Positions 56,391 to 62,753 of a DNA stretch of 64,000 nucleotides are shown here, piece by piece. The notes under the pieces are model-generated. The model saw only the letters and a list, made by a program, of their open reading frames with translations. It had not been told where the DNA came from and ran no database searches. The position numbers and the translations under genes were made by a program. Position 1 is the stretch's first letter; each line of letters starts with the position of its first letter. The DNA comes from Pseudomonadota bacterium (GTDB lineage Bacteria > Pseudomonadota > Gammaproteobacteria > Xanthomonadales > Xanthomonadaceae): positions 1 to 64,000 of the forward strand of contig JAFEBX010000004.1 in assembly GCA_018242425.1 (NCBI GenBank). Reading direction: 5' to 3'.

Positions 56391-57299
56391 TCACGCATCA
56401 TCGCCATCGCTGCGCACGCGCCCCGGACCGACGCCTTCGAGGCGCTTGAAAAAACGCCGGAACGCCGCCTCGCTGCGATAGCCCAGCATCTCGGCCACCG
56501 TGGCAACGGAAAACCGCCGATTCCTCAACAGACGGCGCGCTTCCGTCGCGCGCCACTGCGCAAGGTACTGGATCGGCGGAACGCCAACGACCTGGGTGAA
56601 CAGTTCCGCGAACGAGGTGCGCGACATCCCGGCGACATGCGCCATGCCCTGGATCGTCCAGTCTTCGCCCGGCCGCATGTGGACGGCCGCCAATGCCTTC
56701 GACAATCGCGCATCGACCAGCGCCGCCAGCAATCCGCGCGGCTGTTCGGCACGCCGCACGTATTCGCACACCGCCATCGCGAACAGCGAATCCGCGAGCT
56801 TGTTCTGCACCACTTGCCGGCCCCAACGGGTATCGCGACTGTTGTTCGCCAGCAATTCGGCGAGTTGGCGAAACGCCGGGCCGCTCTCTTCCGAACGGAT
56901 CACGAAGCACGACGGCAAGGCGGTGAAGATCGGATTGCCGCTGCCGCCGTGGAAATCGAGATCACCGCACAACATGGAGGTATCGGGCGCATCGCTGGCG
57001 GGCGGATGATGGGGATCGGGTCCGGCCGAAAGCATGTGCCTGCAACCACCCGGGAAAACCACCAGATCGCCACGCTCCAGCCATAACGGTTGTTGCAATG
57101 TTTCTTCGTTGATCCAGCAGCCACCCGCCGTCACCAGATGGAACTGGCCGTGCGGTGTCGCCGGTTCCTGTTCGAACCATGGCCCGCAATAACTGACATT
57201 CGCGGTGATCTCGACGCGGACGCGATACGCGCCCAGCACCGTTTCCAGCACGCTGTCGATGCTGTCCGGGGCCGGTGGCGAAAGATCGCTTTGCTGCAT
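56391..57299 (-). CDS. AraC family regulator with a cupin_6 sensor domain
   Basis: 302 residues. N-terminal cupin (PHGQFHLVTAGGCWIN, ERGDLVVFPGGCRHML), C-terminal double HTH (WTIQGMAHVAGMSRTSFAELF; RRFSVATVAEMLGYRSEAAFRRFFK). Binds a small molecule and switches a promoter. It is divergent from the bufferin operon (216 bases between the starts), the most likely target besides itself. Confidence 0.88.
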   Translation of the reverse strand: MQQSDLSPPAPDSIDSVLETVLGAYRVRVEITANVSYCGPWFEQEPATPHGQFHLVTAGGCWINEETLQQPLWLERGDLVVFPGGCRHMLSAGPDPHHPPASDAPDTSMLCGDLDFHGGSGNPIFTALPSCFVIRSEESGPAFRQLAELLANNSRDTRWGRQVVQNKLADSLFAMAVCEYVRRAEQPRGLLAALVDARLSKALAAVHMRPGEDWTIQGMAHVAGMSRTSFAELFTQVVGVPPIQYLAQWRATEARRLLRNRRFSVATVAEMLGYRSEAAFRRFFKRLEGVGPGRVRSDGDDA

Positions 57300-57514
57300 G
57301 GCCGCATCCTAGGCCAATTCCGCGGCCACTGGCCATGCTCGCGCGCATGCCAATTCATGGCGCATCGTCCGGATCGCCTGAATGGACGCGGACTCACGGA
57401 CGTTCGGGCATGGCGACAGGACGAAGGGGACTATCCCCAGCCGCCATTCGCGAGTGGAATGACCACGCCGCCGGATCGCGACGGCTTCCTCTTCCAACCA
57501 TTCGAGGTTTTCCC
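57300..57514. promoter_or_regulatory. divergent regulatory region, AraC gene and bufferin operon
   Basis: 215 bases between divergent starts; must hold both promoters. I see no convincing -10/-35 or AraC direct repeat, only scattered short inverted repeats such as CGCGCATGCCAATTCATGGC. Confidence 0.4.
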
Positions 57515-57817
57515 ATGAGCACGCAACTCAAAACCGTTTCCGGCCTGTCCGTGGCGCTGGCCGCCGCTTCGATGTTCCTGGTCGCGCCGATCGCACAAGC
57601 CGCCGGCTCCGGCAGCGCCCCAATGGGCCATTGCATGGGCGCCAACGCCTGCAAGGGCCAGGGCGCATGCAAGACCGCGCACAACGCCTGCAAGGGCCAG
57701 AACGCCTGCAAGGGCCAGGGCTTCACCCAAACCAGCGAGAAGGACTGCAAGGTCGCGGGCGGCAAGTTCGAGAGCGCCAAGGGCGCCGCGGCAGCGAAGC
57801 CGGCCAGCAAGTCCTGA
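57515..57817 (+). CDS. bufferin-type Cys-rich metallophore precursor (BufA2-like)
   Basis: 100 residues: signal peptide (SVALAAASMFLVAPIAQA) and a mature part with six cysteines (40, 46, 52, 59, 65, 78) in a run of ACKGQ-type repeats plus EKDCKVAGG. This is the pattern of the BufA2 precursors whose cysteines are converted by BufB/BufC to thiooxazoles that bind copper. The immediate downstream genes supply exactly those enzymes, which supports the call strongly. Confidence 0.85.
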   Translation: MSTQLKTVSGLSVALAAASMFLVAPIAQAAGSGSAPMGHCMGANACKGQGACKTAHNACKGQNACKGQGFTQTSEKDCKVAGGKFESAKGAAAAKPASKS

Positions 57818-57888
57818 TGTCCCCTGCCCCGTCCTTTCCACCCGAAGGGACGGGGCCTTTCCATCCGATGCAACGCAGAGAAGACGCG

Positions 57889-58734
57889 ATGACACGCCCC
57901 CTGCAAGGTTTCGGCCTCGGCCTGAGGCCCGGCTATTACGAAGACGCGCTGGCGCCGCAGTGCCCGGTGGACTGGTTCGAAATCGTCAGCGAGAACTACA
58001 TGGTCGCCGGCGGCCGCCCGCTGCATGTGCTCGACCAGATCGCCGAACGCTATCCGCTGGCGATGCATGGCGTGTCGTTGTCGATCGGCGGGGGTGATCC
58101 GCTCGATCGCGATTACCTGCGCCAACTCGCGGCACTGGCGCGACGCGTGCGCCCGCGGGTGATTTCCGATCATCTGTGCTGGACCGGCGGCGATGGCATC
58201 CAGCTGCACGACCTGTTGCCGTTGCCGCAGGTCGAAGAAGCCGTCCGCCATGTCGCGGCGCGCGTGCGCGACGTCCAGGACGCGCTGGGCCAGCAGATCC
58301 TGCTGGAAAACGTCTCCAGTTACCTGCGTTTTTCCGGCGACACGCTGGATGAAGCGCAATTCCTTTCGGCGATCGTCGCGGAATCCGGCTGCGGCCTGCT
58401 GCTCGACGTCAACAATGTGTGGGTCAACGGCCACAACCACGGCTTCGATCCCCGCGCGATGCTCGATGCGTTGCCGATCTCCGCCGTCGGGCAGATCCAT
58501 CTCGCGGGGCATTCCATCGATGCGCTCGGCAGCGGCCTGCTGGTCGACACCCACGACCAGCCGGTCTGCGCCGACGTCTGGAATCTCTACGCGCATGCCG
58601 TCCAACGCTTCGGCGACGTGCCGGCGATGATCGAGCGCGACGACAACTTTCCGCCGTTCGCCGAATTGCTGGCGGAACTTGCGCGTGCACGCGACATCGC
58701 GGCGATGACGACGACGCAGAAGGAGGCGGCATGA
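57889..58734 (+). CDS. DUF692 multinuclear non-heme iron oxidase (BufB-like)
   Basis: 281 residues, TIM-barrel DUF692/MNIO. Metal ligands are in MHGVSLSIGG, ISDHLCWTG, LENVSSY, LLLDVNNVW, IHLAGHS and ERDDN. Family members modify cysteines of partner peptides. ATG 57889 preferred; 57868 and 57817 are upstream options. Overlaps the next start by 4 bases. Confidence 0.9.
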   Translation: MTRPLQGFGLGLRPGYYEDALAPQCPVDWFEIVSENYMVAGGRPLHVLDQIAERYPLAMHGVSLSIGGGDPLDRDYLRQLAALARRVRPRVISDHLCWTGGDGIQLHDLLPLPQVEEAVRHVAARVRDVQDALGQQILLENVSSYLRFSGDTLDEAQFLSAIVAESGCGLLLDVNNVWVNGHNHGFDPRAMLDALPISAVGQIHLAGHSIDALGSGLLVDTHDQPVCADVWNLYAHAVQRFGDVPAMIERDDNFPPFAELLAELARARDIAAMTTTQKEAA

Positions 58735-59519
58735 ACCTGCCCGCTGCCGGTCTTTTCGCGCAGCAGGCGGCCCTGCAGGACTGGCTGCTGCATGGCAATG
58801 CCGTGGCGTCCGGATTCGTCGATGGCGATCGCCGTGACCAGCGCCTGCGCATCTACGGCGATGCCTACCGACTGCGCCTGATCGATGTCCTCGCCAACGA
58901 TTTTCCCGTGCTGCATGCATTGGTCGGTGAAACGATGTTCGAAGCGCTTGCGACTGGCTACCTGCATGCGCATCCGTCGCGGCATCCTTCCGTTCGCCAT
59001 TTCGGACGCGACTTCGCCGACTGGCTGCGGCGGCAGGAACATCCATCGACATGGTCGATACTTGCCGACTTCGAGTGGATGCAAGGCGAAGTGTTCGACG
59101 CCGCCGATGCCGCTGCGATCGCGATGGAAGATATCGCCGCGCTTCCCGCCGAAGCCTGGCCCGGGTTGCGATTCGCCCTGCATCCGGCAATCCGTCGCGT
59201 GCGCACGCCTGGCTGCATCCCGACGATGGTCGAAGCGCATCACGCTGGCCGCCCACTGCCATCCACGGAGGATCGCGATCCATCCGACTGGCTGTTGTGG
59301 CGCGACGATTTCCGCGTCCATTGGCGCCGGCTCGATGCCGACGAGGCAGCCTTGCTCGGCATGGCTGTCGACGGTGCGACATTCGCGGAACTGTGCGCCC
59401 GACTCGCGCTATCCCTTCCCGACTCCGAGGCCGCACTGCGCGCCATCGGCCTGCTCAAGCGCTGGATCACCGATCGACTGGTGATCGCGGCGACACCTGT
59501 ACCGAACACGATCGATTGA
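58731..59519 (+). CDS. DUF2063 partner protein (BufC-like)
   Basis: 262 residues. LRIYGDAYRLRLIDVLANDFPVL is the DUF2063 N-domain motif (YRxxRLxxxLxxxFP), joined by a second domain (SWTILADFEWM-like STWSILADFEW). DUF2063 proteins help present the precursor to the MNIO. ATG overlaps the DUF692 stop (ATGA), so the two are coupled. Confidence 0.88.
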   Translation: MNLPAAGLFAQQAALQDWLLHGNAVASGFVDGDRRDQRLRIYGDAYRLRLIDVLANDFPVLHALVGETMFEALATGYLHAHPSRHPSVRHFGRDFADWLRRQEHPSTWSILADFEWMQGEVFDAADAAAIAMEDIAALPAEAWPGLRFALHPAIRRVRTPGCIPTMVEAHHAGRPLPSTEDRDPSDWLLWRDDFRVHWRRLDADEAALLGMAVDGATFAELCARLALSLPDSEAALRAIGLLKRWITDRLVIAATPVPNTID

Positions 59520-59529
59520 GGAATCCACC

Positions 59530-60039
59530 ATGCAACGCTGCGCCACCTTCATGAAGAAGCCACCCATCGATCCAGCCATCGCCCAGGCATCGATGCCGGT
59601 GCGCTTCCACCACACCTTCCTTTTCTACGCCAGACGTTACGACTGGCTCGCACCGCTGCTGCTGCGCCTGGTGTTCGGTTATTTCTGGGCGGAAACTGGT
59701 TGGGCCAAACTGGTGAACCACGCCGGATTCGCCGAGCGCTTCGCCAACTGGGGCGTGCCCTTCCCGGACCTCAGTGCCTACGTCAGTGGCGCGACGGATC
59801 TGGTCGGCGGCGTGCTGCTGATGCTGGGGTTGATGACGCGCCTCGCCACACTGCCGATGATCTTCAACATGCTGGTCGCATTGGCTCTGGTCGTGTTGCC
59901 GGGCATCTCGACCGTGGACGAATTCGTCGAGCTCGACGAAGTGCTGTACACGCTCGTGCTGTTCTGGCTGTTCATGGCCGGTCCGGGGCGCGCCAGTCTC
60001 GACCACCTGATTGCACGCCGTTTCGCCAATCGCATGTGA
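59530..60039 (+). CDS. DoxX family membrane protein
   Basis: 169 residues, four TM helices: LLLRLVFGYFWAETGWAKL is the DoxX signature, then GGVLLMLGLMTRLAT. It commonly follows bufABC-type genes (as hvfD). Probably assists maturation or redox chemistry at the inner membrane; mechanism unknown. 10 bases after DUF2063. Confidence 0.88.
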   Translation: MQRCATFMKKPPIDPAIAQASMPVRFHHTFLFYARRYDWLAPLLLRLVFGYFWAETGWAKLVNHAGFAERFANWGVPFPDLSAYVSGATDLVGGVLLMLGLMTRLATLPMIFNMLVALALVVLPGISTVDEFVELDEVLYTLVLFWLFMAGPGRASLDHLIARRFANRM

Positions 60040-60043
60040 AAAA

Positions 60044-60075
60044 GAAACCCGCCTTGCGGCGGGTTTCTTCTGTTG
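60044..60075 (+). terminator. terminator of the bufferin operon
   Basis: GAAACCCGCC and GGCGGGTTTC pair around TTGC, then TTCTGTT; 4 bases after the DoxX stop. Confidence 0.85.
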
Positions 60076-60104
60076 CGGCATTGCCTGCAAAACCGACGGA
60101 TCGA

Positions 60105-62753
60105 TCAGCCGCCGTTCTTCGCCAGCCAGGCATCGACGGCCGGGATCTGCTCCTTGTGCACCTTGATGCGATATTCGATGCCCGCGATCGCGGTATCGGC
60201 ATCCCGGCGCGATGTCGGGGCAAGATACTTCTCGGCGTAGCCGCGGATCTTGCCGACCATCGCCGGATCCGAGGAGCTGGCGCCCAGGCCGGCGTAGTAG
60301 CGGCTCAGCGACGAGGCATCGACCAGCTTGTCGACCTGCTCGCGGTGCGCCAGCGCCCAGTCGAACACCATGTCCGGGTGATCGAACGCGGCGCCGCGGA
60401 TCATGCTCGCGCTCGTCGTCGCACCCGGCTCGTCGGTCAGGGCCAAGTCCAGTGCCTTCTGGGTCAGGGCCGCGTCGTCCGCCGATGCCAGCAGCGAATA
60501 CATCTGCGACTTCACCATCGGCGTCGGCGCCGACTTCGCCATCGCGTGCAACTGGTCCCACTCGGCCGGTGTCGCCTTGGAGCCCACGAGGCCCAGCACG
60601 ACGCGACGCATTTCCGGCGCCATCGCCCCGCCCGACTGCAGCGTGGCGAAACGCTTGCGTGCCTCCGCGAGCGTCGCCGCATCGTCCATGTCGCCGAGCG
60701 TGCCGATCAGGCTCATGCGCAGCGACTTCACCGCAGCGGAATCACTGGCCTTCTGCTCCCAGCCGAGCTTGTCCAGCATCGGGCGCAGGCGCTTGGTCGC
60801 ATACGCCTGGAACGCGCCGCGGTTGGCATCGTTCTTCTTGTAGCTGTTGATGGTCGCGAGCGAACCCACCAGGGCCTGTTGCACCTGCGGCTTGGAATTG
60901 GCGTCGATGCTGCGGGTCAGTTCGAGGTAATCGGCGATCGGCTGGCGACCGGCGGTCCCGAGCGACCAGGTGTCGCTCATCAGGCCGAGCTGGTCGATCG
61001 GCTTCAGCTGCGCGAACGCCTTGCTGATCGCGGCGAACTGGTCGGCGGAGTAATGCGTGCGGTAATAACCGGCCTGGCCGGCATTCACCAGCACCGGGCC
61101 GCAACCCTGCAAGGTGATGCTGCCCTTGCCATCGCGCACCAGCGTGCGCGACTGCGGCTTGCCGACCACTTCCGCCACCACCGGCACGCGCCAGCTCAGC
61201 GGAGTCTTGTCGGGACGGTCGCGGGTGAATTCACCCTGGGTCAGCTGCACCGTGGTCTTGCCATTGCTGCAGGTGACGGCGCCGACATCGATCTGCGGGA
61301 TGCCCGGCTGCAGGGTGAAGTCATGCGCGATGTCCTTGATCGGCATCTTGCTGCCTTCGTCCATCGCGTTCCAGAAATCGTCCGACACGGTGTTCGAATA
61401 GGCATGCTTCTTGATATAGCGACGCACGCCGGCGCGCCACGCGTTCTCGCCGAGGTAGTTCTCCAGCATGTGGATCACCGACTCGCCCTTGGAATAGGTG
61501 ATGGTGTCGAAGGCCTGGCTGGCCTGTTCCACCGTCGCCACGTGCTGCACGATCGGATGGGTGGTCGCGATCGCATCGCGGCCCATCGCCGCTTCACGCA
61601 CGCCGACCGCGCTGATCGCGGTTTCCCACTCCGGATGCAGCTTGGCGGTGGTGCGGCCTTCCATCCACGAGGCGAAGCCTTCGTTCAACCACAGGTCGTC
61701 CCACCAGCGCATCGTCACCAGGTCGCCGAACCACTGGTGCGCCATTTCGTGCGCGTCGGTCGAGAACACGCCGATCTTGTTGCCTTCGGTCGAGACCTTG
61801 GGGTCGAGCAGCAGCGCGTATTCGAAGGTGAAGATCGCGCCCCAGTTTTCCATCGCACTGAAGAACTGGCTCTGGCCCGGTGCCGCGATGTTGTCGAGCT
61901 TCGGCAGCGGGTACTTCACGCCGAAGTAGTCGTTGTATTCGTCGATGATCTTGGCGCCCGATTCCAGCGCGAAATCGGCCTGCGAGACCATGCCCTTCTG
62001 CGCGATCACGCCGATCTCGGTGCCACCGGCGGCCTTGGTCGTGCGGCGCTCGAAATCACCCAGGCCAAAGAACAGCAGGTAGGTCGACATCTTCGGCGAG
62101 GTTCCGAAGGTCACGCGCTTCATGCCGTTGCCGGCGTCCTTGCTCGACTTGACCGGCATGTTGCTGACCGCCATCTGCCCGCTCGGCACCACCGCGGTGA
62201 GGTCGAACACGGCCTTGTAGTTCGGCTCGTCCCAGCTCGGGATGAAGCGGCGGGCGTCGGAGTTCTCGAACTGGGTGTACAGCGCGCGCTTCTTGCCTTC
62301 CTTGGTGTCGTAGTCGAGGGCGAAGATGCCGACGGCCTGGGTACCGATCTTGCCGGTGTAGTGCGTGGACAGCACGTAGCGGCCCGGCTTCAGTTCCTTG
62401 TCGAAGGTGAAGGTCGCGGTCTGGTTGGCCGCGTCGATGCTGACCTGCGGCGTCATCGCGCCACCGGCACCCTTCAGGCTGGTCTGCGAGAAGGTCATGT
62501 CGATCGCGTTGAGGGTGATCGTCTTGGTCGCCTGGACCACGGCGATGTCGATCGAGACCACGCCGTCGAAGTTCATGTCCTGCGCGTGCGGCGTCACTTC
62601 CACCGTGTAGTGCTGCGGCACCACGTTGCGCGGCAGCTGGGTGGTCGTGGTGGTGTCGATGCGCGGCAGCGCGGACGCTGCTGCAGGCTTGGTGGCGGCG
62701 TGGGCCTGGCCCGCAAGCGCGGCGGCGATGGCGAGGCTGAGGATGCGGGACAT
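60105..62753 (-). CDS. M1 family zinc aminopeptidase
   Basis: 882 residues with a signal peptide (to AHA). HEMAHQWFGDLVT and the downstream NEGFASW form the HEXXH-x18-E zinc site; SAMENWGA is the GAMEN-type N-terminal recognition loop; ERAP-like C-terminal domain follows. Secreted or periplasmic peptidase removing N-terminal residues. Stop is 38 bases from the convergent DoxX terminator. Confidence 0.94.
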   Translation of the reverse strand: MSRILSLAIAAALAGQAHAATKPAAASALPRIDTTTTTQLPRNVVPQHYTVEVTPHAQDMNFDGVVSIDIAVVQATKTITLNAIDMTFSQTSLKGAGGAMTPQVSIDAANQTATFTFDKELKPGRYVLSTHYTGKIGTQAVGIFALDYDTKEGKKRALYTQFENSDARRFIPSWDEPNYKAVFDLTAVVPSGQMAVSNMPVKSSKDAGNGMKRVTFGTSPKMSTYLLFFGLGDFERRTTKAAGGTEIGVIAQKGMVSQADFALESGAKIIDEYNDYFGVKYPLPKLDNIAAPGQSQFFSAMENWGAIFTFEYALLLDPKVSTEGNKIGVFSTDAHEMAHQWFGDLVTMRWWDDLWLNEGFASWMEGRTTAKLHPEWETAISAVGVREAAMGRDAIATTHPIVQHVATVEQASQAFDTITYSKGESVIHMLENYLGENAWRAGVRRYIKKHAYSNTVSDDFWNAMDEGSKMPIKDIAHDFTLQPGIPQIDVGAVTCSNGKTTVQLTQGEFTRDRPDKTPLSWRVPVVAEVVGKPQSRTLVRDGKGSITLQGCGPVLVNAGQAGYYRTHYSADQFAAISKAFAQLKPIDQLGLMSDTWSLGTAGRQPIADYLELTRSIDANSKPQVQQALVGSLATINSYKKNDANRGAFQAYATKRLRPMLDKLGWEQKASDSAAVKSLRMSLIGTLGDMDDAATLAEARKRFATLQSGGAMAPEMRRVVLGLVGSKATPAEWDQLHAMAKSAPTPMVKSQMYSLLASADDAALTQKALDLALTDEPGATTSASMIRGAAFDHPDMVFDWALAHREQVDKLVDASSLSRYYAGLGASSSDPAMVGKIRGYAEKYLAPTSRRDADTAIAGIEYRIKVHKEQIPAVDAWLAKNGG

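Follow-up and report, generated by a model that had tools for sequence, protein, structure and literature searches.

A Buf2-type bufferin operon of a Lysobacter-like bacterium with a linked AraC-family regulator and a candidate operator

We analyzed a window of 64,000 nucleotides from a Lysobacter/Solilutibacter-type genome (2.7 Mb assembly, 24 contigs), in which a bufferin-type operon had been predicted at positions 57515-60039. The four genes named there, for a Cys-repeat precursor, a DUF692 enzyme, a DUF2063 partner and a DoxX protein, are all present on the forward strand. The first gene, bufA (bufA2, 57515-57817), encodes a bufferin precursor of 100 amino acids that scored 88.9 bits against the BufA2 equivalog model NF050166 (cut-off 60), the match spanning residues 11-85. 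It is followed by bufB (57889-58734) for an MNIO (DUF692) maturase of 281 amino acids, which reached 375.3 bits against NF050167 (MNIO_BufB, cut-off 310) and also matched PF05114 with 361 bits in a profile search. The third gene, bufC (58731-59519), encodes the DUF2063 partner (PME type 1, 262 amino acids; PF09836, 82.8 bits, cut-off 27.2) and the fourth, doxX (59530-60039), a DoxX-family membrane protein of 169 amino acids (PF07681, 64.6 bits, cut-off 23.6). BufC and DoxX stayed below the cut-offs of the HvfC and HvfX equivalog models (56.4 vs 142 and 72.4 vs 80 bits, respectively), and a comparison of BufC with solved structures gave no match. The original prediction further described a tight operon with overlapping genes. 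This applies to bufB and bufC, which overlap by ATGA (58731-58734), but not to the other junctions, as 71 nt separate bufA from bufB and 10 nt lie between bufC and doxX.

BufA contains six cysteines at positions 40, 46, 52, 59, 65 and 78, five of them in Cys-Lys pairs, and six conserved cysteines are a trait of 90% of the BufA2 family. The arrangement of six cysteines in ACKGQ repeats had been taken for a variation from which a specific pattern of modification could be predicted. The cysteines are there, but ACKGQ is the normal BufA2 motif: together with six cysteines it is common to BufA2 proteins of Pseudomonas, Dyella, Methylobacterium, Ferrovibrio and others, and a canonical motif gives no ground for a special pattern. 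Read by eye, the N-terminus comprises Lys6, a hydrophobic stretch and an AQA-A site with the cut after AQA29, and BufA probably carries a Sec signal peptide. With this cut, the mature peptide would have 71 residues and a calculated monoisotopic mass of 6843.15 Da; each modified Cys would lower the mass by 4.03 Da, giving for instance 6825.01 Da with four modified cysteines and one disulfide. BufB is the sole BufB-type maturase in the genome of the window. It has ERDD at residues 249-252, and the Asp-Asp pair 251-252 is invariant in 13 BufB proteins, whereas the HvfB-type structure 3bww has ERDF, i.e. Asp-Phe at the place of D251-D252. In the captophorin study an Asp replacing the Phe after the catalytic Asp was reported to mark the maturases of Cys-Lys-type bufferins (PMC13097082), and by its residues 251-252 BufB belongs to this type. 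The order bufA-bufB-bufC with a DUF2063 partner and DoxX is likewise that of bufferin gene clusters. Gene order, the Asp-Asp pair and the curated cut-offs passed by BufA and BufB all bear out the assignment to the bufferins, and we predict with high confidence that 57515-60039 is a Buf2 bufferin operon of a kind already known. Buf2 (BufA2B2C2) bufferins such as that of Caulobacter vibrioides, and the Cys-Lys 'captophorins', share with it the precursor model, the six cysteines, the gene order with doxX and the Asp-Asp specificity pair of the maturase. The operon of the window differs from them in a linked dedicated AraC regulator and its operator. The new part is thus found upstream of bufA, and the bufferin operon itself is an ordinary family member.

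Judging from the family, BufB would act together with BufC in the cytoplasm and oxidise those cysteines of BufA that stand in Cys-Lys pairs; the most likely products are 5-thiooxazoles (-4 H each). Once modified, the peptide would exit by the Sec route and buffer copper in the periplasm, with an accessory membrane role for DoxX. It is improbable that the peptide serves another metal such as zinc, gold or silver or remains unmodified, a reading to which the first naming of Buf clusters as gold-induced genes and the existence of MerC fusions (PMC12452194) lend some weight. Copper buffering by a modified peptide is the role that we prefer.

Two hairpins were found in the operon region. The first (57826-57856, forward strand) lies between bufA and bufB and has a 13-bp stem (-27.2 kcal/mol, z -2.7). 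A perfect stem of at least 8 bp occurs at this junction in 73% of 86 BufA2 operons from many families, compared with 15-23% in the controls (shuffles, upstream regions, coding regions and the bufB/bufC junction). The hairpin sequence is turned over or unrelated between lineages, with paired changes of the stem in close relatives, and the hairpin was lost in one Lysobacter-like lineage (L036, L040-L042). A canonical terminator was considered and rejected, as a T-rich tail follows no more than 15 of 63 hairpins. Therefore, partial termination is not general, though possible in some operons; protection of the 3' end or processing that keeps the precursor RNA above the enzyme RNA would be the favoured function. 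In the literature searched, PMC12452194 included, no description of this hairpin was found. The second hairpin (about 60042-60065; -21.1 kcal/mol, z -5.0) is located in the gap that separates doxX from the M1 peptidase gene, which is convergent. It had been regarded as the operon's own terminator. However, this two-way terminator also serves the peptidase gene, and it is kept in another member of the genus (G015) at the site where the operon is absent.

The gene of an AraC-type regulator (56391-57299, reverse strand, 302 amino acids) is divergent from bufA. The protein combines a Cupin_6 domain (PF12852, 116.8 bits) with an HTH_18 domain (PF12833, 72.4 bits, cut-off 33.6). This neighbour had already been mentioned in the original prediction and turned out to be a good lead and the most interesting part of the locus. 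Of 17 genomes of the genus, 5 have both bufA2 and the AraC ortholog and the remaining 12 have neither. Among 395 genomes of the family, the ortholog (>380 bits) was found in 22 and adjoins bufA2 in every one of them, while the next-best AraC protein reached 220 bits, leaving a gap. BufA2 without this AraC occurs as well, namely in 21 of the 43 family genomes with BufA2. In Dyella (Rhodanobacteraceae) an AraC protein with 45-47% identity is encoded after bufC, and it is doxX that diverges from bufA; the DoxX proteins of Dyella-type buf loci are 56-64% identical to that of the window. The same arrangement was seen in a second family (f12), where all ten loci with the operator described below carry bufABC, divergent doxX and, after bufC, an AraC gene (46-51% identity). 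The five genes araC, bufABC and doxX thus stay together, in two orders, that of the window and that of Dyella. Moreover, in G015 the flanking genes are 84-89% identical on the DNA level and the whole araC-bufABC-doxX block is absent. Therefore, the block is present or absent as one unit. It sits between a TonB-receptor gene and the M1 peptidase gene, which adjoin at the empty site of G015 (contig 74, ~2316-2759; L128, ~1061-1501). The TonB-receptor gene at this site reads in two frames.

Alignment of the araC-bufA gaps of relatives yielded conserved blocks that resolve to two half-sites and a -10 element. Half-site R1 (GGACGTTCGGGCATG, 57398-57412, forward strand) follows the pattern GGACGnnCGGGCATR, and half-site R2 (57419-57433, forward strand) is a direct repeat of the R1 core exactly 21 bp downstream. 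In 27 loci the R2 core showed on average 8.0 of 9 matches at +21, compared with 2.83 (sd 0.69) at other offsets. The 21-bp direct repeat was present in 27 of 27 loci, i.e. two half-sites two helical turns apart beside the promoter, with R2 adjoining the -35 position of bufA. The probable -10 element (TGGAAT, 57455-57460, forward strand) conforms to TGnAAT at a fixed distance of +57 from R1. Its AAT is invariant in 21 Lysobacteraceae loci, and in Dyella this register is occupied by CACAAT at most loci. This element came from the alignment, and a sigma-70 consensus scan of the bufA promoter found no promoter-like site, which is expected since the promoter would be activator-dependent. A search of positions 57200-60200 against Rfam gave nothing at gathering level. 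Besides, an inverted half-site L (CATGGCGCATCGTCC, 57356-57370, reverse strand) faces araC; it is weak here and strong in relatives. Its spacing to R1 in Lysobacteraceae is mostly 16, 27, 38 or 49 bp, in 11-bp steps, and the inverted half-sites of these loci are predicted to lie on one face of the helix. No p-value is given for this phasing because the spacings are common to related species. The inverted half-sites of Dyella are weaker and located 37 or 46-47 bp from R1.

With at most one mismatch, R1 was found in 26 of 29 araC-linked bufA2 loci compared with none of 63 BufA2 loci without AraC. The motif was defined on Lysobacteraceae loci, so the enrichment among these is partly by construction, but the tests on Dyella-type loci, on unlinked loci and genome-wide are independent of that definition. 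A perfect R1 occurs just once in the window's own assembly, before bufA. Dyella-type genomes have the same operator before bufA even though araC is at the other end of the operon. A blind search for the composite operator in a family sample of 395 genomes and a partly overlapping order sample of 397 returned 34 distinct sites, of which 30 precede bufA2. The remaining 4 equal in number the 4 distinct sites of a reversed-pattern control. Ten of the sites, those of f12, had been held out from motif definition, although loci L086-L114, whose upstream regions were viewed before the composite pattern was drawn up, may include some of the same Dyella species. Two of the 22 linked genomes of the family (G281 and G305) gave no match to the composite operator. 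We conclude that the AraC protein would have essentially one target, further targets with a degenerate operator being possible.

These results also bear on whether the regulator acts on the operon at all. It might be a passenger that came to lie beside bufA by chance or hitch-hiking, the promoter motif then belonging to another regulator, and gain or loss of araC and buf as one block, as indicated by the empty site of G015, could indeed retain an unrelated neighbour. However, the motif tracks AraC and not BufA2, in all 30 operator-bearing bufA2 genomes and across two gene orders, the 63 BufA2 loci without AraC are also without the motif, and a 21-bp direct repeat is a layout typical of AraC proteins. 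We consider a passenger highly improbable. Dedicated control of bufABC-doxX by the AraC protein is strongly supported by these comparisons of gene neighbourhoods and promoters. The divergent AraC would bind the tandem sites R1 and R2 and, from R2 beside the -35 position, presumably switch on bufABC-doxX, and the opposite half-sites probably control araC itself.

As to the signal, the best NCBIfam match of the protein is RclR, the HOCl-sensing AraC-family regulator of E. coli, with a score well under the cut-off (107.7 vs 400 bits). An AlphaFold model (pLDDT 79.7, pTM 0.68) confirmed the AraC layout, and a Foldseek search with it matched ToxT, Rns and AraC by overall fold only, with large rmsd. 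In an alignment of 30 buf-linked AraC proteins, Cys38, His54, Cys61, His88, Cys111 and Cys178 are invariant. At position 178, eight unlinked AraC paralogs have Arg, and they retain nearly all other conserved Cys and His. Five of the six residues are also found in unlinked Cupin_6 AraC proteins and, by themselves, would be no argument for copper. RclR is switched on when Cys21 and Cys89 form a disulfide, and a Cu(II) reductase belongs to its regulon (PMC7464077). It is through YbtA, another cysteine-rich AraC protein, that a metallophore pathway responds to copper (PMC8725597). Because of these parallels and the conserved Cys and His, the AraC protein is likely to sense copper or thiol stress, which would probably be perceived by Cys38, His54, Cys61, His88 and Cys111 of the Cupin_6 domain together with Cys178. 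Alternatively, the protein could be a repressor, or answer mainly to oxidants such as hypochlorous acid or thiol stress in the manner of RclR and not to copper. The RclR match, the disulfide activation of RclR with its induction of a Cu(II) reductase, and the link of DoxX to oxidative stress speak for this. However, no rclABC-like genes were noticed in the operon, and R2 beside the -35 position with a well-placed -10 of poor consensus is the usual layout of an AraC activator. We regard this alternative as possible but rather unlikely. A Buf2 operon for copper buffering, under a dedicated one-component, cysteine-rich AraC regulator, presumably an activator, that probably answers to a copper or thiol signal, is in all probability the best explanation of the whole.

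Bufferins are among the largest RiPP families. Similar regulatory arrangements were described for other systems. Buf1 (DUF2282) bufferins with ECF sigma/NrsF are likewise encoded in a RiPP operon for copper buffering that brings a regulator of its own, but the precursor family and the class of regulator are different. YbtA of yersiniabactin is also a cysteine-rich AraC-family regulator of a metallophore pathway and responds to Cu(II)-Ybt (PMC8725597), but it has another sensor sequence and serves a small-molecule metallophore taken up via a TonB-dependent receptor and no RiPP. RclR likewise has conserved cysteines in its sensor domain and differs, besides its score, in its target genes. The landscape survey reported sigma/anti-sigma genes with Buf1 clusters and none with Buf2 clusters. 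It took unrelated genes into account up to a distance of 10 bp and says nothing of AraC or of the hairpin (PMC12452194). Under this limit araC, which is divergent and 215 bp away from bufA, would be overlooked. In the part of the literature that we searched, no regulator of the Buf2 branch was found; AraC was named alongside DUF692 or DUF2063 in two papers only, once in each. The AraC-operator pairing makes the question of what turns Buf2 operons on directly testable: with the composite operator almost only before bufA, this would be a one-gene, one-site system whose inducer and natural role could be read by a simple reporter. If true, a further and chemically new metallophore pathway would be under an AraC-type sensor as in the case of YbtA.

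The two AraC-linked bufABC lineages differ in gene order and stay apart in the BufB tree, the backbone of which is weak (87/17); a single origin of the linkage is not borne out by this tree. Counts of changes along the tree were set aside, as a score threshold had wrongly placed loci L035, L037 and L039 with the Dyella-type AraC. As the same AraC, operator and DoxX are found on both lineages, the module was perhaps recruited twice or retained. The chances appear evenly balanced for the broader proposal that a new Cupin_6/AraC thiol/copper-sensor module with a single target per genome controls bufferins across several Lysobacterales lineages, having been recruited twice or kept amid exchange, and that the widespread intercistronic hairpin sets the precursor above the enzyme.

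Some further loci were observed. Related AraC proteins with 38-41% identity occur in five genomes without BufA2 (L163-L167 in G088, G147, G122, G095 and G020), four of these loci being at contig ends. In one genome (G142, L035/L162) the buf-linked AraC gene was matched as two separate pieces, which suggests a frameshift or an insertion in the assembly. A Dyella-like buf locus was also found in a metagenome-assembled genome of another phylum (L074, record labelled Candidatus Eremiobacteraeota), where it was probably mis-binned or transferred. Finally, in one genus of the family the BufA2 operons adjoin a second maturase/DUF2063 pair and have no AraC (L023-L027 in G306, G278, G339, G297 and G331).
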